From NCBI RefSeq assembly GCF_036867135.1, contig NZ_JBAJIJ010000002.1, positions 248,001-312,000 on the forward strand: a stretch of DNA of 64,000 bases, written 5' to 3'. Below the pieces are notes generated by a model. It had not been told where the DNA came from and did not search any database. It was given only the letters and a program-made list of their open reading frames with translations. Positions 4,793 to 26,984 of this stretch are shown piece by piece; the stretch's first letter is position 1; each line of letters opens with the position of its first letter. Both the position numbers and the translations under genes were made by a program. Source of the DNA: Aeromicrobium sp. Sec7.5. Its GTDB lineage: Bacteria; Actinomycetota; Actinomycetes; Propionibacteriales; Nocardioidaceae.

Positions 4793-4865
4793 GCCCCGTT
4801 CGTTTAGCGGCCTAGGACGCCGCCCTTTCAAGGCGGTAGCGCGGGTTCGAATCCCGTACGGGGTA
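4793..4865 (+). tRNA. tRNA-Glu (anticodon TTC)
   Basis: A 73-nt cloverleaf. The acceptor stem pairs GCCCCGT with ACGGGGT, followed by a discriminator A. The anticodon arm is CCGCC-CTTTCAA-GGCGG with anticodon TTC. The T arm is GCGGG-TTCGAAT-CCCGT. The 3' CCA is not encoded. Its 3' part is read on the other strand as the C-terminal codons of the adjacent integrase, marking it as an integration site. Confidence 0.93.
4812..4865. other. Putative attachment site of the tRNA-Glu element
   Basis: The integrase reading frame continues into the 3' part of tRNA-Glu and ends inside it. Its last codons spell PVRDSNPRYRLERAAS, a peptide that recurs in actinobacterial integrases when they are translated across an attB-type tRNA site. 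This marks one end of the integrated element. A second copy of the tRNA 3' segment was not found elsewhere in the window. Confidence 0.6.
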
Positions 4866-6092
4866 CTTCAGCACATCGCCAGCGGTTTCAGCGGGACTGT
4901 CCAAATCCGACATCTTCGTCGAGTCCAGAGTTTCCGACTTGGGCAACGTACGGGCAACGCCAGCTTCGAGCCGCTGCGCTGTGCGCGCCGCATCGAGGGC
5001 ATCGGCAACCTCATCGAGACGGTTGTCGAAGAGGTGTCCGTAGGTGTCGAGCGTCATCGTTGCCGAACCATGCCCAAGCATCTGCTGGACCACCTTCACG
5101 TCAGCGCCGGACGCGATCGCAAGGGACGCCGCTGTGTGTCGCAGCTCGTGCGGATGAAGGTCCGGCACGCCGATCTCGGCAGCAGCTACCTTGAACGGTC
5201 GACGAAACGTGGACACGCGCATTGCTTCACCGCCGCGGATCCCCCCGAAGACGAGGTCCTCGGCGGCCTTGCCGTCAACGTGCGTCCGCAGGTCCTCTAT
5301 CAAGAACCGCGGGATAGGGACGGCACGACGTTGATGGGACTTCGGGGTGCCCCACACCATCCCGTGGCCTTGCACGGGCGTTACCGACTCCGCGATCATG
5401 GCGCGCCGCGTGCCCAGGTCGAGCCGCACGACCCGAAGCGCGGCCATCTCGCCGAACCGTACGCCCGTGTACGCGAGGAACAGGATCACGAGTCGGTAGA
5501 GCTCCATCGTCTGTTCCTCAGCCGATCTGTACTTGCTGACCTCGGCCGGCAGAGCGCACGCGTTCGCGAGGGCATCGACCTGTGCATGAGTTAGATACCG
5601 GTGCTCATGTCGCAACAGCCTGGGAAGGTTCACGCCGGCGGCAGAGTTTCGACTGAGCCGGCCATCCTTGACGGCCATGTCGAGCATGAGCGAGAGCACG
5701 CGGTGGATCTTGCGAACTGACGCGGGCGACTGCATCCCCGTCAGCCCGGTCACCCACGACTGGACGTCACTGTGTGACACCGAATCGAGCGTGACGTGAC
5801 TCCATGTCGGTAGGACATGCTTACGGAGGACGCCCTCATACCGGTTGAGCGTTGTCAGCTTGATGTGAGTCTGAGCGGCAAGCCATGTGGCGGACCAGTC
5901 GCCTATGGTCACGCGCGCCAAGGTTGGGTCAACGAAGCCGCCCGTCATCTTGGAGTTCTCGACCGTCACGAGAAAGCGGTCTGCATCGACCTTTCGCTGG
6001 AAGGTCTTGTTGCGTTGCTTACCGGCCGGCGTCCGGTAGTGCACGCGCCAGACATGCTTGCCGTCGCGGCTGCGCTTCTCGATGCTCGCCAT
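4812..6092 (-). CDS. int: Tyrosine-type site-specific integrase
   Basis: A 426-residue integrase. The N-terminal arm-binding domain begins MASIEKRSRDGKHVWRVHY. It is followed by an SAM-like core-binding domain (~residues 65-150) and a catalytic domain (~165-380). The catalytic residues are visible: R in YTGVRFGEMAAL, H-x-x-R in HPHELRHTAAS, H in VQQMLGHGSATM, and the nucleophile Y in LDTYGHLF. The C-terminal ~17 residues are encoded within the tRNA-Glu gene. The gene lies next to an excisionase, the standard layout of an actinobacterial integrative element. It catalyses integration at the tRNA. Confidence 0.95.
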   Translation of the reverse strand: MASIEKRSRDGKHVWRVHYRTPAGKQRNKTFQRKVDADRFLVTVENSKMTGGFVDPTLARVTIGDWSATWLAAQTHIKLTTLNRYEGVLRKHVLPTWSHVTLDSVSHSDVQSWVTGLTGMQSPASVRKIHRVLSLMLDMAVKDGRLSRNSAAGVNLPRLLRHEHRYLTHAQVDALANACALPAEVSKYRSAEEQTMELYRLVILFLAYTGVRFGEMAALRVVRLDLGTRRAMIAESVTPVQGHGMVWGTPKSHQRRAVPIPRFLIEDLRTHVDGKAAEDLVFGGIRGGEAMRVSTFRRPFKVAAAEIGVPDLHPHELRHTAASLAIASGADVKVVQQMLGHGSATMTLDTYGHLFDNRLDEVADALDAARTAQRLEAGVARTLPKSETLDSTKMSDLDSPAETAGDVLKYPVRDSNPRYRLERAAS

Positions 6093-6136: not shown

Positions 6137-6361
6137 TCAAGCCCCACCTGAGCCGCTGTGGACAGACTGCTCCTGCAACCAGCGGATCACGTCACGTCGC
6201 CAGTAGCGCACCGCCCGTCCCACGCGAAAGCCTTGAGGACCGACGCCTTGATGCCGCCAGTAGCGCAACGTTGCAACGGGTGCCCGCACAATCGCTGCCG
6301 CCTCGCTGATGCTGAGCAGCTCATCTTCCTCGGGGACTGAGTTGATGTCATTCGCGGCCAT
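6137..6361 (-). CDS. xis: Excisionase-type helix-turn-helix protein
   Basis: A 74-residue protein with a MerR/HTH_17-like motif: LLSISEAAAIVRAPVATLRY, then WRHQGVGPQGFRVGRAVRYW and RRDVIRWLQEQ. Small proteins of this type directly upstream of a tyrosine integrase act as recombination directionality factors. It lies 44 bases upstream of the integrase on the same strand, consistent with one transcript. A plain transcriptional regulator is the alternative. Confidence 0.85.
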   Translation of the reverse strand: MAANDINSVPEEDELLSISEAAAIVRAPVATLRYWRHQGVGPQGFRVGRAVRYWRRDVIRWLQEQSVHSGSGGA

Positions 6362-6686: not shown

Positions 6687-7412
6687 TCACCACTGAAGTC
6701 GAGGATCTTCGCGTGCCAGTCGTCGAAGTGGGGTGCGCGCTGCGACCAGCGGCGGCAGAGCTGGGTCGATTTTCGCCACCAGCGAGAGGATGTCGTTGAG
6801 TCGGTGCCGCACGTTGACTGCCAAGAGACTGTCGTGGTGAGCGACCCGGTTGCGCAGTTTGCGAAGCGTCTCCAGTTGCTCGCCTATCGCGACGCGACCT
6901 GCGTCGCTCGAGTCGGCGTATGGGAACGCCTTGGAAATCGCGTTGGCCCAGAGGTGTCGCTGCCTTGCGTCGGATTCGAACAGGGTGAACGGGCGAATGA
7001 TCTTGACCCACGTCCCGAACATCAGTTGGACGAGGACGTCGTCATGCACGGCACCTTTCGCGTGTCTCGGATGCCCGGACGGCCTCTCGCGAGCTTCTCG
7101 TGTCGCCCGATCTCTTGCCTGAGCGAGCGGAGTCCCGAGAAGTTTGTAAAGCACCGGCGCCGCTGCGCGATCGGCGGTCCATTCAGGCGAGTAGCCCTCG
7201 GCCGAGTTCCAGGCCGATAGCTGAGGATCCACAGCGTTACGAACCGCGATCTCCACGAATGAAATCTGAGCATGGAGAGCGCCCGCCAACTCCGTCGCCC
7301 AGAGGTACAACTCCAAGGCGCGTTCCTCATCGTTCGCGCCCGCCCGAAGGTATGTCTGTAGCCGTGCGGGACCAAGCAATGTCGACAATGCGCTTTGACT
7401 GGTCACGAGCAT
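6687..7412 (-). CDS. Abi-family (HEPN-type) protein, candidate abortive infection factor
   Basis: A 241-residue helical protein. The first ~60 residues contain LGPARLQTYLRAGAN and ALELYLWATELAGALHAQIS, typical of the Abi-like family. A VQLMFGTWVKIIRP segment lies mid-protein. The C-terminal third has LRKLRNRVAHHDSLL, an R-x4-H arrangement as in HEPN ribonucleases. Family members (AbiD/AbiF-like) abort phage infection by degrading RNA. It lies between the excisionase and an unrecognised three-gene operon in the integrated element, a usual place for defence cargo. No antitoxin partner is evident. Activity against phage is inferred. Confidence 0.72.
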   Translation of the reverse strand: MLVTSQSALSTLLGPARLQTYLRAGANDEERALELYLWATELAGALHAQISFVEIAVRNAVDPQLSAWNSAEGYSPEWTADRAAAPVLYKLLGTPLAQARDRATREARERPSGHPRHAKGAVHDDVLVQLMFGTWVKIIRPFTLFESDARQRHLWANAISKAFPYADSSDAGRVAIGEQLETLRKLRNRVAHHDSLLAVNVRHRLNDILSLVAKIDPALPPLVAARTPLRRLAREDPRLQW

Positions 7413-7581: not shown

Positions 7582-8877
7582 TCACGGACTCGGCGCTCGG
7601 GCAACGGACCTCTGAGTGGGCGCGACCTCCGGCGATCTGCTGAGTGTCCTGCCGGGCTCGCTGGTTGGAGTCAGCGAGGACCGGTAGATCGGGTCGAAGG
7701 CAGCGGAGCGTCGGACAGCCTCCGCTGAAGCCGCGAAGGCGAGGTCGAGGGGCCCGCGCACGGCCTGTCGCGCTTCTGCCGGGAGCGGTATAACTCGTCC
7801 CTGGTGCAAGTCCGCTGCGGACACGATGGATCCCAGGTGATCCGGGCGAGGGTTCTGTTCGCGGAGCAGACGGTTGATGGCGCGTGCTGGCGCGAGCAGT
7901 TCGCGTTCGTCCACCAGGTCCCGCGCTGCAGCGGCCAGTCCCATAGACGTAGCCAAGTGCGAGGTGAAGGTGCCGAGAACATCCACGTCCTCGGCTCGGC
8001 AGGTCAAGGATGCGATCCCGGAAAAGCGTGATCGGACTTCCTCGCCGGCGCCCATGATGTCCCGGTCGGGCGAGGAGTGGCCGAAGCTGAACTGGCTCGC
8101 GATGTTCTCGACGTCACGCCATGCCGACGCGGCGCCGGCGATCGCGGGATCGATCCTCTCGGCAGTCAGCGAGTCGATCACGCCGAGAACGTGTGCTCGC
8201 GTTGTTGCAGCGCGGAAGGCATCGAACGTGGCGACCTCCAAACTCGCGACGTGATGCAGCACGACAGTAGATCCGTGTGCCAGCAACGCTCGATGAGCGA
8301 TCACATCCCAACGACCCAGCGCGGCACCAAGGTCAGCGGACGGAGACCCCAGCGGCACGTCCGGACGAAACACGCCAGTCATGGCAAGCGTTTCGATGGC
8401 CTTCATGCGCTGGAAAACGTCGCGCACCGAAGCCCGCTCCGGTTCACTGTCCGGGTTCCTGTCGAACTCCAGATCGTAGCCGTGGTCGCGAGCCCGTTCA
8501 GCGACCAGCTCAGCGCCGACCCAGAGCACGGCGATAAGCATCCGGTGCGCGATCTCCACATCGGCAGCAGCCGCCGGAGGCGTAGCCCTTGCGGCCGCAA
8601 CTAAGTCGCCATGAACCGGTGCAAGTGCCTCACTTCGCCGGCCGTCTCCGGGCCACGCTTGGTTCTGGCCCGGAGACGTGATTGAGCTCGACATGGCTTC
8701 GATACGTTGCACCGTCCTATTCGGATCGCCAACCGGCAACCGGTCGTGAGCGGCGCGAGCAGCTCTAGCGATCAAGGACCACCCGCGAACCAGTTCGCCG
8801 GCATTCAACCCAGTCGAGCTACGAGCGCGCAGCATGTGGGCCTGAGCGACCCTGAGGTGATCAAGCGAGCTGGACAT
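7582..8877 (-). CDS. Unrecognised protein C of a three-gene operon (431 aa)
   Basis: I do not recognise this protein. The ATG of MSSSLDHLRVAQAHMLRARS is chosen because the decayed paralogue at 26.69 kb starts at the same place (MPTSLDHLRGAQDHMMRARN). It is alanine- and arginine-rich and predicted largely helical, with no membrane segment or signal peptide. Segments such as IAHRMLIAVLWVGAELVAER and HRALLAHGSTVVLHHVASLE look like long amphipathic helices. It overlaps gene B by 17 bases and ends before a hairpin. It sits on the integrated element with genes A and B. The repeat of the whole trio elsewhere shows it is a functional unit, but its role is unknown. Confidence 0.7.
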   Translation of the reverse strand: MSSSLDHLRVAQAHMLRARSSTGLNAGELVRGWSLIARAARAAHDRLPVGDPNRTVQRIEAMSSSITSPGQNQAWPGDGRRSEALAPVHGDLVAAARATPPAAAADVEIAHRMLIAVLWVGAELVAERARDHGYDLEFDRNPDSEPERASVRDVFQRMKAIETLAMTGVFRPDVPLGSPSADLGAALGRWDVIAHRALLAHGSTVVLHHVASLEVATFDAFRAATTRAHVLGVIDSLTAERIDPAIAGAASAWRDVENIASQFSFGHSSPDRDIMGAGEEVRSRFSGIASLTCRAEDVDVLGTFTSHLATSMGLAAAARDLVDERELLAPARAINRLLREQNPRPDHLGSIVSAADLHQGRVIPLPAEARQAVRGPLDLAFAASAEAVRRSAAFDPIYRSSLTPTSEPGRTLSRSPEVAPTQRSVARAPSP

Positions 8878-9223
8878 ATCGCCGAGTCCCCGCCAAAACC
8901 CGAGCAATGCTCGCGAGCAAGATCTGAACATCTGGATCAAGTTCCGCGCTCATCAAGTCGAAAAGCTCCAGGGCCGAAGGTTCGAGTTCAGTCATGCGGC
9001 TGAACTCGGGCTCCTGTGGGAACGGCGTCGGCAGGCCGGTCAACAGCTGCAACCTTTGGCAGGCCACTAGGGCGTCGTACGACAGACCAGAGATCTCGGA
9101 CACCGCCGATGGGTCGAGGTCAACGACGTGCGCCTGCGCCGTCTCGCGGCTAATCGCGCTCAGGATCGCGACCAACCTCCGGGCAAGGTCAAAATGGCGC
9201 GGATCTGCGACTGTCGTGATCAT
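8861..9223 (-). CDS. Unrecognised protein B of a three-gene operon (120 aa)
   Basis: A small protein of unknown function. The start is the ATG of MITTVADPRHFDLARRLV, preceded by an AAAGGA ribosome site and matching the paralogue at 26.34 kb. It appears all-helical with an acidic bias: SAVSEISGLSYDALVACQRL, PFPQEPEFSRMTELEPSALE, and a C-terminal LLASIARVLAGTRRYVQLA. The stop overlaps the start of gene C by 17 bases, so the two are coupled. Position and conservation as a trio suggest the products work together, perhaps as a complex. That is inference. Confidence 0.68.
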   Translation of the reverse strand: MITTVADPRHFDLARRLVAILSAISRETAQAHVVDLDPSAVSEISGLSYDALVACQRLQLLTGLPTPFPQEPEFSRMTELEPSALELFDLMSAELDPDVQILLASIARVLAGTRRYVQLA

Positions 9224-9301
9224 CGGTGTGTCCTTTCGGCGGATGTGGCAGATCGAGCGTGCGGTGGTTGGTCGCCCCGGGTCTACGGACACTTCGGCGT
9301 C

Positions 9302-9310
9302 TGTGGATAA
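9302..9310. promoter_or_regulatory. Single DnaA-box-like nonamer
   Basis: TGTGGATAA, the complement of the DnaA consensus TTATCCACA, lies in the 140-base gap between genes A and B. A single box is weak evidence for an origin, and no cluster or AT-rich stretch accompanies it. Confidence 0.25.
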
Positions 9311-9363
9311 ACAAGCCCGGTGGCATGGCTCGCGACGAGCTCGGACCGCCGACCTGACGTTGG

Positions 9364-10029
9364 TCATCGCCGCAGCCCATGGGTCGTGGTCGGGCTCGGG
9401 TTCGGCGAGGGTCGCGGTTCGTAGTTGCGCCGGCTGACGCGGTGATCGGTCTGCTCGCTCGCGCCTACGACCAGGTGGAGTTGCTGACGTGCGGTATCCG
9501 CCGCGTCCAATCCAAGGACCCGTCCCAGCAACGGCAGGTCCTCACTCACGCGGTGAACTGCTCGTCGAGCCTGGTCCAGAGCAACTGAGGCTTCCTGGAC
9601 CGCGTGTTGAACCAGCTCCGGCAGACACGGATCGGAGGGCAGCGCCGAGACGATCCGATACAGCGAAGTTGCGGCCTGGGCGATGCTCAACTGTACGTAC
9701 CGGGTTTCCCGCGCGGCCTGCAGCACCACGCCTGTGATGGTTCGTGCGTGGTCTGGGTCGACTCGGCCCGATACGGCGGCATCGAAGTACGCGGCTTCGG
9801 CCTCTGACAGTGCCGGCCGAATCGACTGCGCATGATCCTGCAGTGGTCCAGCAAGCCGGCGGCGCAGATCGTCGGCGCGATCGACGACCACCAGGCCACC
9901 GCCGGCACGGTCACTGAGCCGCTCGAGTTCCAACAGCTCAGCGTGTGAACTCATCAACTGCCGACCGAGGTTCTTCGCAACCTCGTTGCCTTGGTCGATG
10001 TGTATGCGAGCTTCGGACAATTCGCTCAT
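9364..10029 (-). CDS. Unrecognised protein A of a three-gene operon (221 aa)
   Basis: I do not recognise this protein. The ATG of MSELSEARIHIDQGNEVAKN follows a strong AGGAGG site six bases upstream, which fixes the start. The first ~140 residues look helical and coiled-coil-like: HAELLELERLSDRAGGG, VVDRADDLRRRLAGPLQDHA, RTITGVVLQAARETRYVQLS. The last ~30 residues are a low-complexity Arg/Pro/Ser tail. It is the first gene of the A-B-C operon. A frameshifted paralogue lies at 25.69-26.33 kb beside paralogues of B and C in the same order. No enzymatic motif is visible. Confidence 0.7.
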   Translation of the reverse strand: MSELSEARIHIDQGNEVAKNLGRQLMSSHAELLELERLSDRAGGGLVVVDRADDLRRRLAGPLQDHAQSIRPALSEAEAAYFDAAVSGRVDPDHARTITGVVLQAARETRYVQLSIAQAATSLYRIVSALPSDPCLPELVQHAVQEASVALDQARRAVHRVSEDLPLLGRVLGLDAADTARQQLHLVVGASEQTDHRVSRRNYEPRPSPNPSPTTTHGLRR

Positions 10030-10441: not shown

Positions 10442-10756
10442 TCAGTCGAGTCCGAGACCGCGGCGCAGGTCAGTCAAAGTCTTCTCGAGCTCTGCCGGGA
10501 TGATCGAGTACTGACGACGGCGCGCATCGGTCTCTTCGCGGGGCGGATGGACCCACACGACTCCGAGCTCCTCGAGCACAGGCAGGTGCTTCCGCAACAG
10601 CGAGCGCTGTACAGACAACCGTTCCGCAAGCTCCGTTTGCGTAGCCGGCCCATCGACGAGCAGCGAGCGAATCGCCGCGACTTTGACACGGTTCCCAACC
10701 ATGTCGATCGCACGATCGACGCCTTCGGGCTGCTCAGGACGCACAGGAGTCGACAT
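10442..10756 (-). CDS. Winged helix-turn-helix transcriptional regulator
   Basis: A 104-residue ArsR/MarR-like DNA-binding protein. The helix-turn-helix and wing are visible as VGNRVKVAAIRSLLVDGP, QTELAERLSVQRSLLRKHL and PVLEELGVVWVHPP. An arginine-rich strand (REETDARRRQYSII) and a C-terminal helix follow. It has no metal-binding cysteine pair, so a metal sensor is unlikely. The ATG of MSTPVRPEQ is preferred, although in-frame ATGs lie 5-6 codons upstream. It is transcribed away from a small gene across a perfect 25-bp palindrome 40 bases upstream. That layout suggests it represses both itself and the neighbour. Confidence 0.75.
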   Translation of the reverse strand: MSTPVRPEQPEGVDRAIDMVGNRVKVAAIRSLLVDGPATQTELAERLSVQRSLLRKHLPVLEELGVVWVHPPREETDARRRQYSIIPAELEKTLTDLRRGLGLD

Positions 10757-10795
10757 GTCGCACATTGTCATCACGATCGACTTGTGCTCATACTA

Positions 10796-10825: not shown

Positions 10826-11149
10826 GTGAACATCCAGGTCATCGCCCAGGGAACGCTTCTCGCCAAACCAGAAGCCGTCGGGGACGAGCGCGAAGACGTT
10901 ACGGCTGTCATGTTCGGCACCCGCCAGGAGGTCCGTCACCAAGGTCAGGTGATCGTGCTCGACACGGTCCCGACTGCAGAACTGGTGTGCGCCGGCGAGC
11001 TCGCGAACGCCCTGCTACGGCTTGAGAAGGGCGACCGCGTGGAGATTCGCGCCACGATGACGGTCAGGTGCAGGTTGGCCGATGTCGAGGATCGCTTCGC
11101 CCAGGTCCGGACGAGCTTCCACGCCGACACGTTCCTGCGCCTCAACTGA
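10826..11149 (+). CDS. Small unrecognised protein, possibly OB-fold (SSB-like)
   Basis: A 107-residue protein starting at the GTG of the stretch reading NIQVIAQGTLLAKPEAVG, preceded by TTAGGAG. It looks beta-rich: TAVMFGTRQEVRHQGQVIVL, LLRLEKGDRVEIRATMTVRC. This strand pattern recalls the OB-fold of single-strand DNA-binding proteins on plasmids, but typical SSB residues are not clear. Its promoter region carries the 25-bp palindrome, so the divergent winged-helix protein probably controls it. Function is uncertain. Confidence 0.6.
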   Translation: MNIQVIAQGTLLAKPEAVGDEREDVTAVMFGTRQEVRHQGQVIVLDTVPTAELVCAGELANALLRLEKGDRVEIRATMTVRCRLADVEDRFAQVRTSFHADTFLRLN

Positions 11150-11342: not shown

Positions 11343-11669
11343 TCACGGCCCAGCGACCGGCCCGGCGCCCAAGTCGCGTTCGGCAGTCTCAGCCAACGCC
11401 CGCAGACGCCTGGCCTCACCATCCGACAGGTCCGGGATCCAATCGGCCAGCTCAGCCACCGGAACCCGCTCGTCGCGCAGCAGCTTCAGCACTGCCTGCC
11501 CTGCCGTCAGCTCCAGCCGCCGGACGAGCTCGTCACGTTCCTCGAGCACGACCGCCGCTTCGATCCCGAGCGCCGACCGTCGCTTCTCACCGGCCGCGCG
11601 CTCGCGCCGCCGCACATCCTGGGCCTCAAGCGCCCTTGACCGCGCCTGCTGCCTGATCGAGCGACCCAT
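11343..11669 (-). CDS. Coiled-coil plasmid/ICE-associated small protein
   Basis: A 108-residue charged protein beginning at the ATG of MGRSIRQQARSRALEAQDVR. The N-terminal ~45 residues are a basic amphipathic helix (RRRERAAGEKRRSALGIEA). Then come VVLEERDELVRRLELTAGQ and a C-terminal helix pair (VPVAELADWIPDLSDGEARR). Short basic coiled-coil proteins of this pattern are common beside recombinase cassettes and conjugation genes in actinobacteria, but their role is not established. It is convergent with the small gene at 10.8-11.1 kb and divergent from the recombinase operon. Confidence 0.62.
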   Translation of the reverse strand: MGRSIRQQARSRALEAQDVRRRERAAGEKRRSALGIEAAVVLEERDELVRRLELTAGQAVLKLLRDERVPVAELADWIPDLSDGEARRLRALAETAERDLGAGPVAGP

Positions 11670-11990
11670 GACCTGCTCCTCACCTCGAAGATGCCTTCGT
11701 CCAACAGGGCCATCGCCCACCTCGCCGGCGGACACACCTTGAGAACCTGCACCCGTTCGCCTACCCCCGACCTAAACCGCACCAGCAAACATCCACACAC
11801 CTCTTGCATCTTCGGTAGCAAGGCCGCGAATCAACTCGAAGTTGACTGGCTACAGCCGCGCGTGGGGCGAGTGCCTTTCGCCGGAGTCGGCGAGGGGGTA
11901 CGTCGCTGCTGGTCGACAGATCGCGTCGCCTCTCTGGTAACTTATAGTTGTCATTGTCCACTTTTAGTTGACCGGTGAAGTGAGGTCTGT
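11670..11990. promoter_or_regulatory. Upstream region of the recombinase operon with AGTTGWC repeats
   Basis: No gene is seen in these ~320 bases. Three related motifs occur in the right half: GAAGTTGACTGG near 11838, TATAGTTGTC near 11944 and TTTAGTTGACC near 11963. The last two are direct repeats about 19 bases apart, just before the first recombinase start. They may be recombinase binding or crossover sites, or operator sites for the XRE protein. Confidence 0.35.
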
Positions 11991-13115
11991 GTGGCTGTTC
12001 CGGGGTCGGCTCATCTGGTTCTGGCGCCCGGTGTGCTCCATCTGGACGAGCCGGCGGCGGTGTTCGAGGCGATGCTCTCGGGGTGGGGCAGGCAACAGAG
12101 GTCGAGGCTGTTGGCGGAGGCGACGATCGAGCCGCGGGTGTTGTTGCTGCGACGGTTCACCAGCTTCGTCGGGTCGCATCCGTGGGACTGGACGGCAGGC
12201 GATGTGGAGGACTTCACGGCCAGCCTGATGACCGGCACGGGGCGGTTGGCGCCGTCGACGATCCGTGGCTATCACCTGACGTTGCGGCTGTTCTGCGACT
12301 ACCTGCTCGACGGTCGTTATGGCTGGGTGGGTCAGTGCGAGCAGCGGTTCGGGACGATCCCGTCGCAGGTCTGCCACGACTACAACACCGCTGCGCATCT
12401 GGTCGAGTACGAGGGCAAGCCGTCGCGGCGGCCGTTCTCGTACGACGAGATCGAGACGCTGTTCGGGTTCCTGGACGACCGCGTCGAGCAGGTCGCCCGC
12501 TCGGGTCGCAAGGGCACGTTGGCGGCGTTGCGGGACGCGCAGATGGTCAAGACGGCCTACGCCTTCGGGCTGCGCCGGCGCGAGTTGCGCTTCCTGGACG
12601 TGGTCGACCTTCGCCCGAATCCGCGGATGCCGGGCTGGGGAACCTACGGCGCAGTCCACGTCCGTTACGCCAAGTCCAGCCGCGGCAGCGCACCGCGGCG
12701 CCGCACGGTCCTGGCTGTCCCGGAGTTCGACTGGGTCATCGGCGGGCTGGCGCAGTGGGTCGAGCAGGCCAGGCCGCTGCTGAATCCCGGGACGCGCTCC
12801 GAGTTGTGGTTGACCGAACGCCGCCAGCGGATCAGCCCCAAGACGATGGACAAGCGGTTCGCGTTCCTTCGCCACCAGGCCGGGCTGCCGGCGGAGTTGA
12901 CGTTGCACTGCCTGCGTCATTCCTACGTCACGCACCTGATCGAGTTCGGCTATCCCGAGCGGTTCGTGACCGAGCAGGTCGGCCACTCCTACGCCTCGAC
13001 CACCGCGATCTACACCTCGGTCTCCAACGACTTCAAGACCAAGACCCTGCAGGCCGCGCTCGCACGCGTCTACGACACCAACCACAACAACGACGACAAC
13101 CGGGAGGAAGCATGA
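11991..13115 (+). CDS. Tyrosine recombinase, first gene of a recombinase trio
   Basis: A 374-residue tyrosine recombinase starting at GTG. A SAM-like DNA-binding domain spans ~residues 35-115 (LLLRRFTSFVGSHPWDWTAG, LAPSTIRGYHLTLRLFCDYL). The catalytic domain spans ~135-350: R in AYAFGLRRRELRFL, H-x-x-R in LHCLRHSYVTHL, H in EQVGHSYASTT and the nucleophile Y in AIYTSV. The C-terminus is Asn/Asp-rich and overlaps the next gene as ATGA. It forms an operon with an XRE protein and a zinc-ribbon partner. Such trios are recurrent actinobacterial mobile units, probably moving themselves. Confidence 0.88.
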   Translation: MAVPGSAHLVLAPGVLHLDEPAAVFEAMLSGWGRQQRSRLLAEATIEPRVLLLRRFTSFVGSHPWDWTAGDVEDFTASLMTGTGRLAPSTIRGYHLTLRLFCDYLLDGRYGWVGQCEQRFGTIPSQVCHDYNTAAHLVEYEGKPSRRPFSYDEIETLFGFLDDRVEQVARSGRKGTLAALRDAQMVKTAYAFGLRRRELRFLDVVDLRPNPRMPGWGTYGAVHVRYAKSSRGSAPRRRTVLAVPEFDWVIGGLAQWVEQARPLLNPGTRSELWLTERRQRISPKTMDKRFAFLRHQAGLPAELTLHCLRHSYVTHLIEFGYPERFVTEQVGHSYASTTAIYTSVSNDFKTKTLQAALARVYDTNHNNDDNREEA

Positions 13116-13444
13116 GCACCAAGACCGTGATCCGGTGGAACCTGCGCCAGCTGATGGCCGAGAACGGCATGTTCGCCACCACCGACCTCGTCGAGCCACT
13201 GCACCGACGGGGCGTCGAGATCTCCCGGCAGATGGTCCACCGGGTCGCGACGAAACCACCCCTGCGGATCAACCTGGACCTGCTCGCAGCGCTCTGCGAC
13301 ATCCTGGCCTGCACCCCCAACGACCTCCTCGAGCTCGCCCAGGAGCAGGTCGTTGAGCCTGCTGCCAGTGGCGACATCGGGCCCGGGATCGGTGACCTCC
13401 GGCCGATCCGCGCCACGATCCGCCGCCCCAACCAAGCCGAGTGA
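13112..13444 (+). CDS. XRE-family HTH protein of the recombinase trio
   Basis: A 110-residue protein with a Cro/C1-type helix-turn-helix: IRWNLRQLMAENGMFATTDL, EISRQMVHRVATKPPLRINL, DLLAALCDILACTPNDLLEL. The C-terminal ~40 residues are Pro/Gly/Arg-rich and look unstructured. It overlaps the recombinase upstream (ATGA) and the zinc-ribbon protein downstream (GTGA). Fixed linkage suggests it regulates the operon or helps assemble the recombination complex. Confidence 0.85.
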   Translation: MSTKTVIRWNLRQLMAENGMFATTDLVEPLHRRGVEISRQMVHRVATKPPLRINLDLLAALCDILACTPNDLLELAQEQVVEPAASGDIGPGIGDLRPIRATIRRPNQAE

Positions 13445-14880
13445 AAGACCGTGTCTGCTTCGACTGCGGCGGCACCCGCTACGCCCACACCCGCCTCCCG
13501 CACGGACCGATCTGCACCGCGTGTCGGCGTCGGCGCCACTACCACCATGAGTCCTGTCCCGGCTGCGGCGCGATCCGGCCGTTGGCCTACCTGGCCGGCG
13601 CACTGGTCGTCTGCGCCTCCTGCGCCGGCACCGAGTCGATCTTCGCCTGCAGCACCTGCGGAAGGGAGGACCACCCCTACGGCGCCAAACGATGCGCCCG
13701 CTGCACCCTGCGCGACCGCCTCACCGACCTGCTGACCGACCCGGCGACCGGTCAGATCCACACCCGCCTGCAACCGGTCTTCCACGAACTCGTCGGGTCC
13801 GAGCGGCCGCAGAGCGGGATCTGGTGGCTGCGCAAGAAGCCCGGGACCGGACCCCGACTGCTCAGGCAGATGGCACGCGGGGACGTCGAGATCAGCCATC
13901 AGACGTTTCGGAACCTGCCGTCGGACCGCGCCCATGACTACCTGCGCAGCCTGCTCACCGCGGTCGGCGTCCTTCCACCGTTCGAGATCCGCATCGAGCG
14001 GATGCTGCCCTGGATCGAACAGACCACCGCCGACCTGCCCGCCGAGCAGGCAGCCCTGATCCAACGCTTCGCGCACTGGCACGTGTTGCGACACATGCGC
14101 AGAGCCGCCGGCCAAGGCCGCCTGACCCAGACCATCACCGACGCGTCCCGGCGCCGGATCCGCGTCGCGATCGACTTCCTGGCCTTCCTCGAGACCTGCG
14201 GCGCCGACGCGGCCACCGCGACCCAGGAGCTGCTCGAGCGCTACCAAGAACACACCGGCAGGGCCTTCAGCCACGAGCACGCCTTCATCGTCTGGCTGCG
14301 GGACTCGCGCATCAACACGCGCCTGGTCATCCCTGCCATTCCGCGCCTGACTCCGGCCGTGACCGTCTCCGAGGAGCAACGCTGGGCCGCGGTCGAGCGG
14401 CTCCTGCACGACGACAACCTGCGCCACTACGTCCGCATCGGCGGACTGCTGACCCTGCTGTTCGCTCAACCCCTGTCCAGAATCGTCGCGATGCGCACCA
14501 GCCAGACCACCGTCACCGACCAGACCGTTCACGTCACCTTCAACACCACGCCCGTCCAGATGCCGCCGCTCCTGGACGACCTGATCCGGCAGCACCTGCA
14601 ACACCGCGGCAAGAGCCTCTACGCCTCCCGCGAGACCGGCTGGCTCTTCCCCGGCGGCAACCCCGGCCGACACCTCTCCACCGAGGCCATCCGCTCCCAA
14701 CTCGTCGCGACCGGCATCAAGCCCTACGAGAACCGCAAAGCCACCCTCTTCGGCCTCGCCGGCGACATCCCCGCGCCAGTCCTCGCCGACCTCATCGGCA
14801 TCACCCACAAGAACGCCGCCGCCTGGGCAGGACTCGCCGCCCGAGACTGGACCACCTACATCGCACAACGAGCCCACTGA
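13441..14880 (+). CDS. Zinc-ribbon protein with a degenerate tyrosine-recombinase-like C-terminus
   Basis: A 479-residue protein starting at GTG. The first ~90 residues contain four or more CxxC knuckles (CFDCGG, CTACRR, CPGCGA, CASCAG, CSTCGR, CARCTL) that should form zinc ribbons. The remainder resembles a recombinase: a core-binding-like helix bundle, then LLTLLFAQPLSRIVAM and GWLFPGGNPGRHLSTEAIRS. The usual H-x-x-R and tyrosine signatures are replaced (ATLFGLAGDIPAPVLADLIG, NAAAWAGLAARDW). It is therefore probably a catalytically inactive partner that recognises DNA. It overlaps the XRE gene as GTGA and closes the trio. Confidence 0.78.
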   Translation: MKDRVCFDCGGTRYAHTRLPHGPICTACRRRRHYHHESCPGCGAIRPLAYLAGALVVCASCAGTESIFACSTCGREDHPYGAKRCARCTLRDRLTDLLTDPATGQIHTRLQPVFHELVGSERPQSGIWWLRKKPGTGPRLLRQMARGDVEISHQTFRNLPSDRAHDYLRSLLTAVGVLPPFEIRIERMLPWIEQTTADLPAEQAALIQRFAHWHVLRHMRRAAGQGRLTQTITDASRRRIRVAIDFLAFLETCGADAATATQELLERYQEHTGRAFSHEHAFIVWLRDSRINTRLVIPAIPRLTPAVTVSEEQRWAAVERLLHDDNLRHYVRIGGLLTLLFAQPLSRIVAMRTSQTTVTDQTVHVTFNTTPVQMPPLLDDLIRQHLQHRGKSLYASRETGWLFPGGNPGRHLSTEAIRSQLVATGIKPYENRKATLFGLAGDIPAPVLADLIGITHKNAAAWAGLAARDWTTYIAQRAH

Positions 14881-14979
14881 CCCAGCGATTCGCCCCGAAC
14901 GAATACGACCCCTGCGCCAGCATTGAAGTTCGGATCACGACCACTTGGAGTCCTCGGCGCGGCCTTGCCGTGCGTGACG

Positions 14980-17900
14980 ATGTCGATTCACAAGCTGACT
15001 GCCGGGTCGGGGTACGACTACCTGACCCGCCAGGTCGCCGCGATGGATGCGACCGAGAAGGGTCACACGTCGCTGGCGACGTACTACGCCGACCACGGCG
15101 AGACCCCCGGCCAGTGGATGGGCTCGGGGATGGCCGGGATCGACGGTCTGGACGAGGGCGACCCGGTCACGGCTGAGCAGATGAAGGCACTTTTTGGGTT
15201 CGGGTTCCACCCGTTGGCCGACTCCAGAGTTGCTCAGCTGACCGACTCGGCGTCGACCGCCGACATCAAGCGCGCCCGTCAGCTGGGCACCCCGTACAAG
15301 GTCTATGAGGCCGACGTTCCGCCCTACCGGATCGAGGTCGCCCGCCGCTTGGAGGATCTCAACGTCGCCGCCGGCCGACCGCGAGAGGCGGTCGTGTCGC
15401 TCGAGGAACGGGCGCAGGTGCGGACCGAGGTGGCGCGCGAATACTTCGAGCGGGAGCACGGACGCGAGCCGGCTGACGCCCGCGAGCTCGCCTCCTCTGT
15501 GGCGCTCTACTCCCGGCCCAAGACCACCGCGGTAGCCGGATATGACCTGACCTTCTCGCCGGTCAAGTCGGTCTCGACACTGTGGGCAGTCGCCGACCCG
15601 GCGACGGCGGCGGCGATCGAACGAGCGCACAACGCCGCCGTCAAGGACGCGCTGGCGTTCATCGAGCGCGAAGCGCTGTACACCCGTACCGGTACCAACG
15701 GCGTGCGTCAGGTCGACGTCCGCGGCTTGGTCGCCACGGCGTTCACCCACCGCGACTCTCGCGCCGGAGATCCAGACCTCCACACGCACGTTGCAGTCGC
15801 GAACAAGGTCCAGACCGCCAAGGACGGCATGTGGCTGGCCATTGACGGACGGCTGATGTTCCAGGCCACAGTTGCTGCGTCGGAGGCCTACAACACCGCC
15901 CTCGAGCGGCACCTTGAGGCATCGCTGGGGGTGCGTTTCGAGGAGCGAGAGAACACCGACCGACGCAAGCGGCCGGTGCGCGAGATCGTCGGGGTTGACC
16001 CCCGTCTGAACGAGCGTTGGTCGACCAGGCGTCAGAGCATCGAGGAGCGTCGTGACGTCCTGGTCGCGAAGTTCCACGCCGACCACGGCCGTCCGCCGAC
16101 TGCAGTCGAGGCTGTGCAGCTCGCCCAGCAGGCCACGCTCGAGACCCGCGACGTCAAGCACGAACCTCGCTCGATGCCCGAGCAGCGTGCTCAGTGGGCC
16201 GAGCAGGCGACCGGTGTTCTCGGTGTTAGGGGCCTGGAGCAGATGGTCACCACGGCGCTTCGCCCCGCCCCGTTGTCGGCGCAGGCCGCCGCCGATCGCC
16301 GCGTCGACGCGGCGTGGATCGGACGTGTCGCCGGTCGCGTCGTCGAGGGTGTGCAGGACCGGCGTAGCACCTGGAACCGCTGGAACCTCATCTCCGAAGC
16401 GCAGCGTCACGTGCGCCGCTCCGACGTGCCCGCCGATCAGGTCCAGCACCTCGTGAACCTCGTGGTCGACCAGGCGATCGCCACCTGCCAGCCCTTGGGC
16501 GTCGTCGACGACTCGGTCACGGAACCGGAGCAACTGCAGCGGCGCGACGGCGCGAGCGTGTACACCGTCGTCGGAGCAACTCTGTACACCTCGCCGCGCA
16601 TCCTGGCCGCTGAGCAGCGCATCGTCGAGGCCGCAGGCGTCCGCGACCGGCACCGCGTCGCCCCGGTCGACGTCGACCTCGCGCTCCTGGAAAGCGCCGC
16701 CAACGGTGTCGAGCTCAACGCTGGCCAGGACGCGATGGTGCGGGGAATGGCCACCAGCGGCGCCCGCGTCCAGCTGGGAATCGCCGCTGCCGGCACCGGC
16801 AAGACCACCGCCATGCGGGTCCTGACCCGCGCCTGGGAGGGCTCCGGTGGCAAAGTCATCGGCCTGGCGCCGTCAGCCGCGGCCGCGGCCGCGCTGCGCG
16901 AACAGACCGGCACGACGACCGACACCCTCGCCAAGCTCGTCGACTCCCTGCAGCGCGGCACGGGCGGCGCCCTGGTCGACCAGATCGGGGCCGGGACGCT
17001 CGTGGTGATCGATGAAGCCGGCATGGCTGACACCCTGAGCCTGGACACCGCGATCACCGCGGTGCTCGAGCGCGGCGCCTCGGTGCGCCTGATCGGTGAT
17101 GACCAGCAGCTGGCCGCCATCGGCGCCGGCGGCGTCCTGCGCGACATCGCTGACCGCCACGGCGCGCTCAAGCTCGCCGAGCTGATGCGGTTCGCCGACC
17201 CTGCCGAGGGCGCTGCGACTCTGGCGCTTCGCGAAGGACTTCCCGAGGCGTTGGGCTACTACTTCGACACCAAGCGCGTCCACGTCGGCGACGTCGCCAC
17301 CCTGACCGATGAGATCTTCACCGCCTGGCGCAGCGATCGCGCCGCCGGCAAGGATGCGGTGATGCTGGCACCCACTCGCGACCTGGTGGCCGAGCTCAAC
17401 GCCCGCGCCCGCGACGCGCGACTGGGCGACGTCGGCGCCGCACCGGACCGTGAGCTGCGACTGGCCGACGGCAACAGCGCCTCGGTCGGCGACGTCGTGC
17501 TGACCCGCAACAACGACCGCCGGCTGCGGATCTCGGCAACCGACTGGGTCAAGAACGGCGACCGCTGGCTCGTCGACGACGTGCGCGGCACGGCACTGTC
17601 GGTGCGGCACGTGGAGACCGGCCTGCGGGTGCTGCTGCCGGCGAACTACGTCGCCGAGCACACCGAGCTGGGCTACGCCTCGACCGTCCACACCGCCCAG
17701 GGCATCTCGGCCGACACCATGCACGGGCTCGTGACCGGCGACCAGACCCGCCAGCAGCTCTACACGATGATGAGCCGCGGCCGCCATGAAAACCACGCCT
17801 ACGTCGTGGTCGCCAGCGACGGCAACGCCCACGGTCTGATCCGTCCCGAGGCCCTTCGTCCGCCCACGGCCGGCGACGTCCTGACCCAGGTCTTGGCCCG

Positions 17901-20640
17901 ACACGAGTCCCCGCGTTCGGCCACCACGCTGATCGCCGAGGCCCAGGCCCCAGAAGCTCGCCTGCAGAGGGCGACCGAGAGGTATGCCGACGCCATCTAC
18001 GTCGCCGCCGCAGACCTCCTCGGAGACGATGCCGTAGCCGGCATCGAGACCCAGGCCGAGGTCCTTGTTCCTGGTCTGGTCGACGAGCCGGCATGGCCGG
18101 CGTTGCGTGCGCACCTGGTGCTGCTTCAGGCGCAGGGTGCCGGCGCGATCGGCGAGCTCGCCGACGCTGTCGCGGCCCGTGACATCGAGTCGGCCGACGA
18201 CCGTGCCGCGGTGCTGGACTGGCGGCTTGACCCTACGGGCAGGCGCGACGCCGAGCCGGGGCCGCTGCCCTGGCTTCCTGCCGTCCCGGTCGGGCTCGCC
18301 GGCGACACCCAGTGGGGCAAGTACTTGGGGTCGCTTGCCGACCAGATCCGGGAGCTTGCCAGCGAGGTGCACGACGCGACCTCCGGCGCGGACTCCCCGG
18401 CCTGGGCGCGTCACGCCCGCCTCTCCCCTACCACGGCGATCGCCGGCGACATCGCCGTGTGGAGGGCCGCCACGGGTGTCGACGAGGCCGACCGGCGTCC
18501 GACCGGACCACGGCAGATGCAGAAGGCCGCCGTGATGTATCAACGCCAGCTCGACACCCGTCTGGACGCCGGACGTCGCCCCGCGATGGACGAGTGGGGG
18601 CCAGCCATCCATACACTGCACCCGCGTTCGGATTCCTTCACTCCCCCGCTCGCTGAGCGTTTGGCCGCGATCAACCGGTCCGGCGTCAACGCCGCGGACC
18701 TGCTGAGCCGCGCCGCCGCGGAAGGTCCGTTGCCCGACGAGCACGTGGCCGCAGCGCTCTGGTGGCGCATCGCCCGGCACCTGTCGCCGGCGGTCGCGGC
18801 CGAGCAGAACTCCAGCGACGGCCAGCTGGCTCCTGACTGGGAAGACCTCCTGCACGAGCACCTCGGCGTCGAGGAGGCGTCCAACGTGACCTCATCACCG
18901 TGGTGGCCGACCCTGGTGGCCACCGTCGACCAGGCACACGATCGAGGCTGGCCGGTCGAGCAGCTGCTCGACTTCGCCAAGACCAGCGACGTCGAGGACC
19001 TCGACCTGGCTCAGGCGATGATCTGGCGCATCGCCCTGGTGACCGACCCACCCCCGACCGACGACTACGACGTCCCCGAGGAGAACCCGCCGCCCGAGGA
19101 CCTCCACGAGCCGGACCCGCTCGAGTTCGACCACGACCATGCCCGCGAGACCGGGGCCCACGTCGACGTCGACGAGCTGGACGCCGCGGCGCACACCCGC
19201 GAGCTCCTGGAGCCGGCAGGAGCCACCGGTTCGGGTCTGGACCGGATCATCGACCGGGCATGGGAGCTGCAGGCCTCCCCCGTCCCGGTCCAGCGCATCA
19301 ACGCCATCAACGCCGCAGCAGCCGACTACTTCGAGAGCCAGTTCTCCGACTCGTGGGCGCGACTGCACGTGCACGAACGACTCGGTGTCGACCTTGCCGG
19401 CGACGACCGATTCCGCCCCGGCTACGCCCCAACAGGCTGGACCAACCTGGTCGACCACCTGCGCACCCACGGCTTCAGCGACGACGAGATGCTCGCCGCC
19501 GGCGTGGCCAAGGAAGGCTCCACCGGACGACTGATCGACCGGCTCCGCGACCGCGCCGTCCTGCCCGTCATCACCCAAGGACGAGTCATCGGGTTCGTCG
19601 GCCGACGCAACCCCGACGCCACCCACGACCTCGCCGGACCCAAGTACCTCAACTCCCCCGACACTGTGGTGTTCCACAAGGGCGCCCAGCTCTACGGCAT
19701 CGCCGACGACCACGTGTCCCACGGCGCAGTACCCGTACTCGTCGAGGGTCCCTTCGACGCGATCGCCGTCACCATCGCCTCAGGTGGCGCGTTCGTCGGC
19801 GTCGCACCGCTCGGCACATCGACGACCGAGGAGCAGGCCGCCCAGCTCGCCGGTCTGCACGCCACACCGTTGGTGGCCACCGACGGCGACCTCGCCGGAC
19901 GGATCGCCGCCGAACGTGACCTGTGGTTGCTCGCACCGCATCTGGTCACACCCCGGGTTGTGCCCATGCCGATCGGCGCCGATCCGGCCAGTCTGCTCGA
20001 GCAGCGGGGACCGGCCCAGCTCGTGGCTCTGCTGCAGCAGCACCGTGACCTCGCCGCACTCCTGGTCGACGAACGTCTCACCAACCTGGCCGACCCGAGA
20101 GCCAGGAGCACCAACGCGGCCGAGGTCATCGCCGTCATGGCGCCCGAGCAGTGGGAGGACCTCATCGCCACCACGGCGGCAGCAGGGGCGCTGGAGGCTG
20201 GTCAGTTGCGCACCGACGTCGCGGCCGCGGCATGCTCGTTCAACCAGGACCCGCAGCGCTACTGCACCGACAAGCTCGGCCGCGTCTCTGACGTGCGTCA
20301 GCGCCTCGAACGGCAGGACAAGGCGCGCCCGGCCGACCGGTGGGCGCCGCTCGGACGCTCTCTCGATGGCCGCCTGACTGCCCGAAAGGACTGGCCGGCC
20401 GCCGCGACAATGCTGCAGCGACTCCACGAGCAGGGCGTCGACATCGAGCAGGTCGCACGGGAGGCGATCGCCACACGACCGCTGGGCGAGAACCCCTGCC
20501 GTGACCTGCGGTACCGACTCGCCGGGCACCTAGATAATTCTCAAAGCACGGGCGTTTCGGTGCCGCGCACGGCGACCACGCCGCGACCGCAGGTCCGCCG
20601 CGGACCCCAGCACCGTCCTGACCGCACACCGCGTCGCTGA
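14980..20640 (+). CDS. traA: MobF/TraA relaxase-helicase with C-terminal TOPRIM/primase-like region
   Basis: A protein of ~1,886 residues. The start is the ATG of MSIHKLTAGSGYDYLTRQVA; a GTG two codons earlier is an alternative. Residues ~1-400 form a TrwC-type relaxase with YDLTFSPVKSVSTLWAVAD and the metal-binding DLHTHVAVANKVQT. Residues ~590-960 form a RecD-like helicase: Walker A GIAAAGTGKTTAMRVL, Walker B LVVIDEAGMADT, then YASTVHTAQGISADT. The last ~450 residues resemble DnaG N-terminal/TOPRIM modules: GRVIGFVGRRNPDA, VPVLVEGPFDAIAV, VATDGDLAGRIAAERD. It should nick oriT, pilot and unwind the strand, and perhaps prime its copy. No oriT was identified. Its likely secretion partners lie at 31-42 kb. 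Confidence 0.9.
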   Translation: MSIHKLTAGSGYDYLTRQVAAMDATEKGHTSLATYYADHGETPGQWMGSGMAGIDGLDEGDPVTAEQMKALFGFGFHPLADSRVAQLTDSASTADIKRARQLGTPYKVYEADVPPYRIEVARRLEDLNVAAGRPREAVVSLEERAQVRTEVAREYFEREHGREPADARELASSVALYSRPKTTAVAGYDLTFSPVKSVSTLWAVADPATAAAIERAHNAAVKDALAFIEREALYTRTGTNGVRQVDVRGLVATAFTHRDSRAGDPDLHTHVAVANKVQTAKDGMWLAIDGRLMFQATVAASEAYNTALERHLEASLGVRFEERENTDRRKRPVREIVGVDPRLNERWSTRRQSIEERRDVLVAKFHADHGRPPTAVEAVQLAQQATLETRDVKHEPRSMPEQRAQWAEQATGVLGVRGLEQMVTTALRPAPLSAQAAADRRVDAAWIGRVAGRVVEGVQDRRSTWNRWNLISEAQRHVRRSDVPADQVQHLVNLVVDQAIATCQPLGVVDDSVTEPEQLQRRDGASVYTVVGATLYTSPRILAAEQRIVEAAGVRDRHRVAPVDVDLALLESAANGVELNAGQDAMVRGMATSGARVQLGIAAAGTGKTTAMRVLTRAWEGSGGKVIGLAPSAAAAAALREQTGTTTDTLAKLVDSLQRGTGGALVDQIGAGTLVVIDEAGMADTLSLDTAITAVLERGASVRLIGDDQQLAAIGAGGVLRDIADRHGALKLAELMRFADPAEGAATLALREGLPEALGYYFDTKRVHVGDVATLTDEIFTAWRSDRAAGKDAVMLAPTRDLVAELNARARDARLGDVGAAPDRELRLADGNSASVGDVVLTRNNDRRLRISATDWVKNGDRWLVDDVRGTALSVRHVETGLRVLLPANYVAEHTELGYASTVHTAQGISADTMHGLVTGDQTRQQLYTMMSRGRHENHAYVVVASDGNAHGLIRPEALRPPTAGDVLTQVLARHESPRSATTLIAEAQAPEARLQRATERYADAIYVAAADLLGDDAVAGIETQAEVLVPGLVDEPAWPALRAHLVLLQAQGAGAIGELADAVAARDIESADDRAAVLDWRLDPTGRRDAEPGPLPWLPAVPVGLAGDTQWGKYLGSLADQIRELASEVHDATSGADSPAWARHARLSPTTAIAGDIAVWRAATGVDEADRRPTGPRQMQKAAVMYQRQLDTRLDAGRRPAMDEWGPAIHTLHPRSDSFTPPLAERLAAINRSGVNAADLLSRAAAEGPLPDEHVAAALWWRIARHLSPAVAAEQNSSDGQLAPDWEDLLHEHLGVEEASNVTSSPWWPTLVATVDQAHDRGWPVEQLLDFAKTSDVEDLDLAQAMIWRIALVTDPPPTDDYDVPEENPPPEDLHEPDPLEFDHDHARETGAHVDVDELDAAAHTRELLEPAGATGSGLDRIIDRAWELQASPVPVQRINAINAAAADYFESQFSDSWARLHVHERLGVDLAGDDRFRPGYAPTGWTNLVDHLRTHGFSDDEMLAAGVAKEGSTGRLIDRLRDRAVLPVITQGRVIGFVGRRNPDATHDLAGPKYLNSPDTVVFHKGAQLYGIADDHVSHGAVPVLVEGPFDAIAVTIASGGAFVGVAPLGTSTTEEQAAQLAGLHATPLVATDGDLAGRIAAERDLWLLAPHLVTPRVVPMPIGADPASLLEQRGPAQLVALLQQHRDLAALLVDERLTNLADPRARSTNAAEVIAVMAPEQWEDLIATTAAAGALEAGQLRTDVAAAACSFNQDPQRYCTDKLGRVSDVRQRLERQDKARPADRWAPLGRSLDGRLTARKDWPAAATMLQRLHEQGVDIEQVAREAIATRPLGENPCRDLRYRLAGHLDNSQSTGVSVPRTATTPRPQVRRGPQHRPDRTPRR

Positions 20641-24920: not shown

Positions 24921-25690
24921 CTACGACACGATGTCGGAGATGCCCGGGGATACCGTCACCGCTCTACCGACGCGCTCGGCCGCCTCATCACCGTACGCGC
25001 CCGCCAGGCGGGCCAGGAAGGCCTCCCGGTCGAGCTCGTACTCCTGCGTGCCGGTGGTCTCGACGACGGACGCGGCGACGGTGCAGCCGACCTGCGCGCA
25101 CGTGGTGAGGTCCAGACCCGCGGGCGAGTCCCGCCAGGAACCCGCCCCGGAAGCTGTCGCCGACGCCGGTCGGATCGACGGCCTCGATCCCGCTGATGGC
25201 ATCCACGTCGACGCGGTTGCCGTCCGCGTCGGCGACCGTGACCCCGTCCTTGCCACGAGTGATGACCTGCACACCCACAGCGGCCTTGACCTCGGCGGAC
25301 GACCACCCCGTCTTCTGCTCGACGAGTGCGGCCTCGTAGTCGTTGGTGAACAGGTAGGCAGCGCCCTCGATGAGCTGACGGATCAGGTCGCCATCGGCCC
25401 ACGCCAGCTGCTGCGACGGATCGGCGGCGAACGGCAGACCGACCTCGCGCGCCGCCTGTGTGTGCCGCAGCATGGCTTCCGGGTCGTCGGGCCCGATCAG
25501 GAGCAGGTCGACCGGGGCCTCGGCGTGGAGCGCGGCGACGTCGATCGATCGCGCCTCGGACATCGCGCCGGGGTAGAACGTCACGATCTGCGCGTGGGCC
25601 TCATCGGTCGTGATGGTGCACAGCGCCGTGTGCAGCGACGGCGACACGTGGACACGCGAGCAGTCGACGCCGGCCTTTGACCGCACTGAG
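24921..25690 (-). pseudogene. PfkB-family carbohydrate/adenosine kinase remnant
   Basis: This is the C-terminal ~255 residues of a ribokinase-type sugar/adenosine kinase, the usual neighbour of ctaC in actinobacteria (compare Rv2202c). Conserved stretches are SRVHVSPSLHTALCTITTDE, LLIGPDDPEAMLRHTQAARE, AAYLFTNDYEAALVEQ and the catalytic anion hole EAVDPTGVGDSFRGGF. Soon after this motif (near 25115-25130) the frame shifts, and the rest (AQVGCTVAASVVETTGTQEY) is read in another frame to the stop. The first third is missing, cut where mobile-element sequence begins at ~25690. It cannot make an active enzyme. Confidence 0.85.
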
Positions 25691-25692
25691 GG

Positions 25693-26330
25693 GGAATGCT
25701 CGTCGTCGATCGCGCTGATGACCTGCGCCGCCACCTGGCCGGCCCTCTGCAGGAGCAGGCGCAGCTCGTGCGCCCGGTGCCTGCTGAGGCCGAGACCGCC
25801 TTCTTCCACGCTGCGACCTCGGGCCGGATCGATCCGGAGCATGCGCGCACGATGACGGGGATGGTGCTGCAGACCGCACGCGAGACCCGGCACATGCAAC
25901 TCGGAATCAGCCAGCCGCCACGTCACTGCAGCAGGTGGTCTCGGCGTCCGCCAGCGATCCGGGCCTTCCCGACCTGGTCCGCAACTCGGTGCAGGACGCG
26001 TCGACGGCGTTGGACCATGCGCGCCGCGGTGCTCACCGCGTCTGCGAGGACCTCCCGCTGCTCGAGCGGACACCCGCGCTCGACGTCGCGGGCCCGGCCG
26101 ACCAACCCAGGCTGCCGCTCTCGAGCGACCCCAACGCGGGCCGATCTCCCGGCCGCGCCCACGAGGACCACCAGATGTCCCGATCGGTGGAGGCCGCGAA
26201 CCACGGCGTCACCGGTGACCCTCACCGAAGGCCGGCTGCGTCCACAAGCCCCACCGTCCACAGGTCGCGATGTGCCTCTGGAAGCCGTGCCTCGGTGGGC
26301 TACACGCTCGTGCCACACGCGCCCGACAGA
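25693..26330 (+). pseudogene. Decayed paralogue of gene A
   Basis: The stretch LVVDRADDLRRHLAGPLQEQ continues to GRIDPEHARTMTGMVLQTAR and matches gene A at 9.4-10.0 kb closely. The first ~60 residues are missing. Near 25915-25930 the frame shifts and the match resumes as SDPGLPDLVRNSVQDASTAL and HRVCEDLPLLERTPALDV. It is followed in order by remnants of B and C, so the whole three-gene unit was once present here. The left end abuts the truncated kinase. Confidence 0.8.
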
Positions 26331-26336
26331 CAGGAC

Positions 26337-26860: not shown

Positions 26861-26984
26861 CCCTTGAAGCCGCGAGTGACGTGGATCGCCGCTGCTCGAA
26901 CGAGGCGGAGCACCCCGGAATGTTCCGTCCACGCACCTACAGAGTCTGTACCTTCGGAAGCCTTGGGGGACGGAAGCGTCAGGG

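Follow-up and report, generated by a model that had tools for sequence, protein, structure and literature searches.

A conserved overlapping gene pair in the backbone of a family of actinobacterial conjugative elements

Genes A, B and C and their surroundings

Three genes lie side by side on the minus strand of the window, the whole stretch of 64,000 nucleotides analysed here, which corresponds to C2:248001-312000 of the 3.4-Mb genome of Aeromicrobium sp. Sec7.5 (G000). Gene A (9364-10029) encodes an elongated four-helix protein of 221 aa, gene B (8861-9223) an acidic, soluble protein of 120 aa, and gene C (7582-8877), the most conserved of the three, an all-helical protein of 431 aa without known family or fold. 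B and C share exactly 17 bp (8861-8877, minus strand), in agreement with the preliminary description of the locus, whereas the tight spacing that it also ascribed to the three genes holds for B and C only, A and B being 140 nt apart. Pairwise dN/dS ratios of 0.10-0.17 for C, 0.17-0.38 for B and 0.21-0.51 for A (approximate values, with dS near saturation) indicate that all three are real genes under purifying selection, which is strong for C.

On the side of C the module is followed by an Abi_2/PD-T4-5-like gene (6687-7412, minus strand; E=8e-7 for Abi_2 and E=3.5e-17 for PD-T4-5), which is specific to the window copy and lies outside the conserved module. An ArsR-like winged-helix regulator (10442-10774, minus strand), present also in the relative G020b, adjoins A. 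An SSB-like identity considered for the reading frame at 10826-11149 (plus strand) was unsupported on checking, and a conserved operator sought upstream of A came down to a ribosome-binding site as the sole element common to the copies.

The host integrative conjugative element

The genes are carried by an integrated element whose left boundary, attL (4823-4866, plus strand), is the 44-bp 3' part of a tRNA-Glu gene. An exact 44-bp repeat in the same orientation, without the rest of the tRNA, forms attR at C2:342576-342619 (window-equivalent 94576-94619), and the positions of the two repeats thus give an element of about 89.8 kb, of which the window holds the left two thirds. A tyrosine integrase gene (4812-6092, minus strand) overlaps the tRNA-Glu gene with its 3' end and is accompanied by a candidate xis-like excisionase of the MerR/HTH_17 type (6137-6361, minus strand). 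Beyond A, B and C lie ORF9 (11343-11735, minus strand), whose small product is conserved next to the relaxase both in the elements and on the plasmid pCHL, and the gene of a MobF (TrwC) relaxase-helicase with primase-like C-terminal domains (14923-20640, plus strand; TrwC E=3.6e-87, NCBIfam MobF 242.8 bits against a cut-off of 100). The transfer machinery is represented on the minus strand by a VirD4/TraD-like coupling protein (31876-33471) and a VirB4-like conjugal transfer ATPase (35351-36868), the NCBIfam matches of which are significant yet below the model cut-offs, and by a member of the SCO6880 family, encoded within the type IV secretion gene block (36868-38376), that scores 404 bits, far above its cut-off. 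The element also contains Tad-like genes, whose pCHL homologues are annotated as CpaF, TadE and SAF.

By its gene content, with an integrase at a tRNA gene, att repeats, a relaxase and VirD4- and VirB4-like proteins, the host is an integrative conjugative element (ICE) of the T4SS-type, MobF class. This element type is already known: the survey of T4SS-type ICEs of Actinobacteria defines them by an integrase, a VirD4-like protein, a VirB4-like protein and a TrwC relaxase (PMC3218068), all of which the host element carries, although neither Nocardioidaceae nor Aeromicrobium is named in the survey's main text. The likeness is one of the element as a whole, and the family described here adds linked Tad-like genes and plasmid forms. 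With the AICEs (FtsK/TraB-type) it shares integration into an actinobacterial chromosome by a tRNA-directed tyrosine integrase, but it differs from them in using a MobF relaxase and T4SS genes.

The window copy of the ICE holds many IS insertions. Three near-identical genes for IS transposases of 468-509 aa, two of them in tandem, occupy 42.9-50.3 kb, and other IS families are present too. ORF9 and the relaxase gene are separated by a run of three genes (11991-14880), two of them for tyrosine recombinase-like proteins and the middle one a small ORF; these are probably a recombinase-trio insertion, since they are absent from G004, G011 and G020b.

Aeromicrobium-type relatives and a decayed second copy

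When 198 relatives were searched with a single sequence, C turned up in the genome of the window and in eight others, the match in G017 being weak and partial. Identity of C to the window copy falls to 31-63% in these Aeromicrobium-type loci, and B is found upstream with an overlap of 17 bp throughout. The constancy of this overlap in nine of nine intact copies despite the divergence of C, together with the dN/dS ratios, argues that the arrangement is maintained beyond chance. Gene A is more variable: it is present in seven of the nine loci, stands on the opposite strand in G021, is duplicated in G002 and was found neither in G011 nor on the short G062 contig. To judge from these loci, B and C are the core of the module and A is an optional member. 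The earlier proposal that the three genes travel as a unit consequently stands for B-C but not for A, for which separate occurrence is frequent. Scans of genome contigs and viral contigs returned eight Aeromicrobium-type loci only and no viral locus.

A decayed A-B-C copy, noted in the preliminary description at 25.69-26.86 kb, was recovered by tblastn on the plus strand (25690-26870). It is frameshifted and truncated, with gene order and the 17-bp B/C overlap kept. Residues 44-182 of A are read in two frames with a frameshift between them (25690-26105), B is represented by residues 22-120 (26407-26706), and C runs from residue 1 onward for 45-60 residues (from 26690); identity to the intact window genes is 57-69%. 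The copy is flanked by pieces of cytochrome oxidase, PfkB and trpD genes and resembles a scar left by a further element of this family. The surrounding region, 21.8-28.5 kb of the window, contains within the ICE a second cytochrome oxidase set (ctaD, ctaC, ctaE), next to which lie a truncated gene for a PfkB-like kinase and fragments resembling trpD, and this set is 88-92% identical to a copy on contig C1 (1167-1178 kb). Farther right, at window-equivalent 64-94 kb, the ICE holds a cargo block in common with a second C-bearing element in G020; by eye, the genes of this block apparently serve copper resistance and cytochrome biogenesis.

Nocardioides-type copies and plasmid forms

A second type of locus is found in Nocardioides and its relatives, where 22 of 24 loci show a B/C overlap of 11 bp (pCHL and the Pimelobacter plasmid each enter this set twice, the latter through near-identical records) and C starts with TTG. 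Profile-profile comparison revealed no detectable homology between the B proteins of the Aeromicrobium and Nocardioides types (120 aa), and the two are therefore equivalent by position and architecture only. The same comparison detected no homology between A and a helical protein of 237 aa that stands in a similar place in the Nocardioides-type loci. The order in the latter is this 237-aa protein, a protein with DnaA domain IV, a thermonuclease, small ORFs, the divergent gene F7, B and C. The DnaA-domain-IV protein (312 aa; L039 5203-6141, plus strand) consists of two Bac_DnaA_C modules without an AAA domain match and is conserved upstream of B-C in the Nocardioides-type elements and plasmids. 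F7 (L039 7695-8648, minus strand; L020 10276-11355, plus strand) encodes a membrane protein that by eye resembles an M48 peptidase with a degenerate HExxH region but has no Pfam match; it is kept in Nocardioides-type elements and in G021 and G062.

Homologues of C are also encoded by the plasmids pCHL of Nocardioides sp. QY071 (110,680 bp) and pA-N39 of Pimelobacter simplex (110,939 bp), with 86-89% identity to a Nocardioides-type C, and, at 33% identity, by an Ornithinimicrobium plasmid. pCHL bears several resistance genes. On pCHL and pA-N39 the genes upstream of B-C, for the DnaA-domain-IV protein, the thermonuclease and F7, are the ones found in the ICEs. What follows 3' of B-C differs between the two forms, being xis-int in the ICEs and an RHH-like ORF, a 764-aa protein, ParA and CopG on pCHL and pA-N39. 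B-C hence adjoins a swappable retention cassette and is part of neither version of it. The 764-aa protein (L096 6421-8715, plus strand), which lies between the RHH-like ORF and ParA and matches nothing in Pfam or NCBIfam, is a candidate replication initiator of the pCHL-type plasmids.

This exchange bears on the idea that B-C regulates excision or integration and is co-transcribed with xis and int. In many ICEs B-C does precede xis-int on the same strand, but the pair is kept on plasmids that have no xis-int at that place, and G004, G011 and G020b have their integrase at the opposite end of the element and not downstream of C; such a regulatory function is very unlikely. The compared loci make the independence of B-C from xis-int evident, and likewise from the Abi-like gene, for which no match was found in the nine other loci tested.

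A donor-side function was considered as well, in which B-C (and A) would be an accessory of the relaxosome or of DNA processing, a helical complex working at oriT in support of the MobF relaxase or the coupling protein. In keeping with it, B-C lies on the far side of the relaxase and ORF9 in Aeromicrobium, with C-B(-A) beyond the two in the window and in G004, G011 and G020b, and the C homologue of the Ornithinimicrobium plasmid is beside relaxase and ORF9. On pCHL, where mobF occupies 83.6-89.5 kb, the far side carries an ORF9 homologue (39% identity) and DUF932, ParB-like, SSB and DprA genes before the B-C region is reached. B-C there stands about 25 kb away from the relaxase, while ORF9 remains adjacent to it. 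This distance, the acidic predicted pI of B and the failure to find a DNA-binding domain all weigh against a relaxosome accessory, which we consider unlikely.

Association with the conjugative backbone

A C profile that includes the distant members matches 64 of 342 Nocardioidaceae genomes. VirB4 was scored with a profile at E<=1e-60, which selects 68 genomes, 56 of them with a VirB4 of the close clade (E below about 1e-250). Close-clade VirB4 is present in 50 of the 64 C-positive genomes as opposed to six of the 278 C-negative ones (both in 50 genomes, C only in 14, VirB4 only in six, neither in 272), an association with a Fisher p of 3e-40 if shared ancestry is ignored. Forty-six C copies are on the same contig as VirB4, 43 of them within 90 kb. 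In G965, a genome in one contig that has C only, the cluster is broken and contains split genes, which is what a remnant would be expected to show.

Gene clustering of 13 neighbourhoods supports the same association: the elements of G000, G004, G020b and G011 unite C-B with the relaxase, ORF9, VirD4, VirB4, SCO6880, TrbL-like, LysM-like and Tad-like genes in a common backbone order. Two genomes taken to be Nocardioides (G557 and G388) combine C-B with the T4SS/Tad block in the same order, but with the B-C region at the other end and turned. On these comparative grounds B-C can be placed with assurance in the backbone, not the cargo, of a family of conjugative elements that comprises ICEs and plasmids of about 110 kb.

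Protein features and the search for relatives

The AlphaFold2 models of A (pLDDT 87; four helices of 36-60 residues each) and C (all-helical; pLDDT 84, pTM 0.83) bear out the helical character attributed to the three proteins in the preliminary description; for B it may be presumed. The most conserved residues of C include W75-P76-G77 and W190-D191-x3-H195-R196-A197-L198. The latter, read as 'WDxxAHRAL', had suggested a HEPN-type nuclease, but this was rejected as the arginine of the R-x5-H pattern is not conserved. B is acidic in both the Aeromicrobium and the Nocardioides types (predicted pI 4.1-6.0).

The assignment to no known family has withstood sequence profile, PDB and fold searches alike, none of which gave a convincing match. 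Pfam, NCBIfam, PHROGs and PADLOC returned nothing for A, B or C beyond sub-threshold hits to DUF5990 (A) and phrog_2822 (C). The latter, a phage family of unassigned function, matches C residues 54-137 weakly (E=2.7e-4), but just one of 12 C family members shows the match, and C matches no phage or viral contig. A sequence search of the PDB yielded none for C and chance matches to SMC-type coiled coils for A. Foldseek comparison of the C model with PDB and BFVD gave no match at E<0.001; the matches listed have TM scores of about 0.25 or less, and the top entries are ABC transporters at an rmsd above 20 Å. Fold searches with A in the same two databases found generic or designed helical bundles only. 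The B-C module, as far as these searches reach, matches no curated family.

The preliminary description had proposed a role in defence, exclusion or maintenance from the Abi-like neighbour, and the first two suggestions fare poorly. That A-B-C is a defence or exclusion cargo operon of the integrated element would fit the Abi_2/PD-T4-5-like gene next door in the window, but the argument fails with the lack of a match to that gene in the nine other loci. PADLOC gave no match to A, B or C, 12 C homologues yielded matches at chance level only, and C is tightly associated with conjugation backbone genes, which is unlike cargo. Contrary to what entry exclusion would lead one to expect, no membrane segment was found in the three window proteins (Kyte-Doolittle maxima of 1.0-1.5 over 19 residues; one Nocardioides C reaches 2.0), which makes classic membrane entry exclusion unlikely. 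Defence or exclusion as a whole is highly improbable.

Somewhat less remote, yet still quite unlikely, is an addiction pair akin to toxin-antitoxin systems, in which the small acidic B would neutralise C and the pair would stabilise the element. The succession of a small acidic gene and a larger, overlapping one, the fixed overlap and the retention of B-C in integrated and plasmid forms alike are all compatible with it. C, however, has no recognised toxin family, conserved catalytic motif, PADLOC, Pfam or fold match, and at 431 aa its size would be unusual for the toxin in a pair of this kind.

A possible role in establishment or maintenance

Taken together, A-B-C more likely aids the transfer, settling or persistence of the element than host defence. 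The best reading, which we put forward tentatively and with less than even confidence, is a translationally coupled, soluble, helical complex that serves establishment or maintenance of the element; it is close to the maintenance role of the preliminary description, which remains plausible. The overlap of the genes would couple their translation and provide B and C in a fixed ratio, the two would form a soluble helical complex, and A, the long four-helix protein, would be an optional third component. The module would be situated, on what is presumably the leading side, between the relaxase with the presumed oriT and the cassette by which the element is retained in its host cell, either xis-int in the ICEs or par with the candidate rep in the plasmids, and could act in the establishment or maintenance of transferred DNA in a new host as part of the element's life cycle.

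SSB, ParB-like, DUF932 and DprA-type genes are common on leading sides, and B-C on pCHL lies beyond SSB, ParB-like and DUF932 genes. Like the establishment genes of leading regions (PMC11541004), B and C are backbone genes of uncharacterised role, and they would lie on the side of the presumed oriT away from the relaxase. The likeness has its bounds. In the leading regions studied, the early anti-defence genes lie on the T-strand (PMC11541004), whereas A, B and C are oriented away from the relaxase and the presumed oriT, which leaves early expression after entry unsupported; in addition B-C is about 25 kb off on pCHL, and no similarity to known anti-defence families was found. Aeromicrobium and Nocardioides also differ in where the B-C region stands with respect to the relaxase and in the direction in which it is turned. 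Further points against the reading are the missing fold match of C, the lack of detectable homology between the two types of B and between A and the 237-aa protein, and the genomes with C but not this VirB4 (14) or the reverse (six). It is the orientation away from the relaxase, the presumed status of oriT and the inverted placement in Nocardioides that keep our confidence in establishment or maintenance at the level given above. That B-C(-A) is a new conjugation establishment complex of an undescribed all-helical fold, which secures the entered DNA in ICEs and plasmids and perhaps counters host restriction or SOS responses or organises incoming DNA, is an unlikely outcome; the function of the module may prove to be a known activity within an unfamiliar protein.

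Significance

To judge by the genomes compared, the element family inhabits soil actinobacteria, namely Aeromicrobium, Nocardioides and their relatives, and conjugative elements spread metal- and drug-resistance genes among such bacteria. Strong selection, an invariant overlap and retention in integrated and plasmid forms alike make it likely that B-C is needed for the life cycle of the element, and C can serve as a marker for the detection of this conjugative element family. Being a module without known relative, B-C offers a clear target for learning what such elements need beyond relaxase and secretion machinery.
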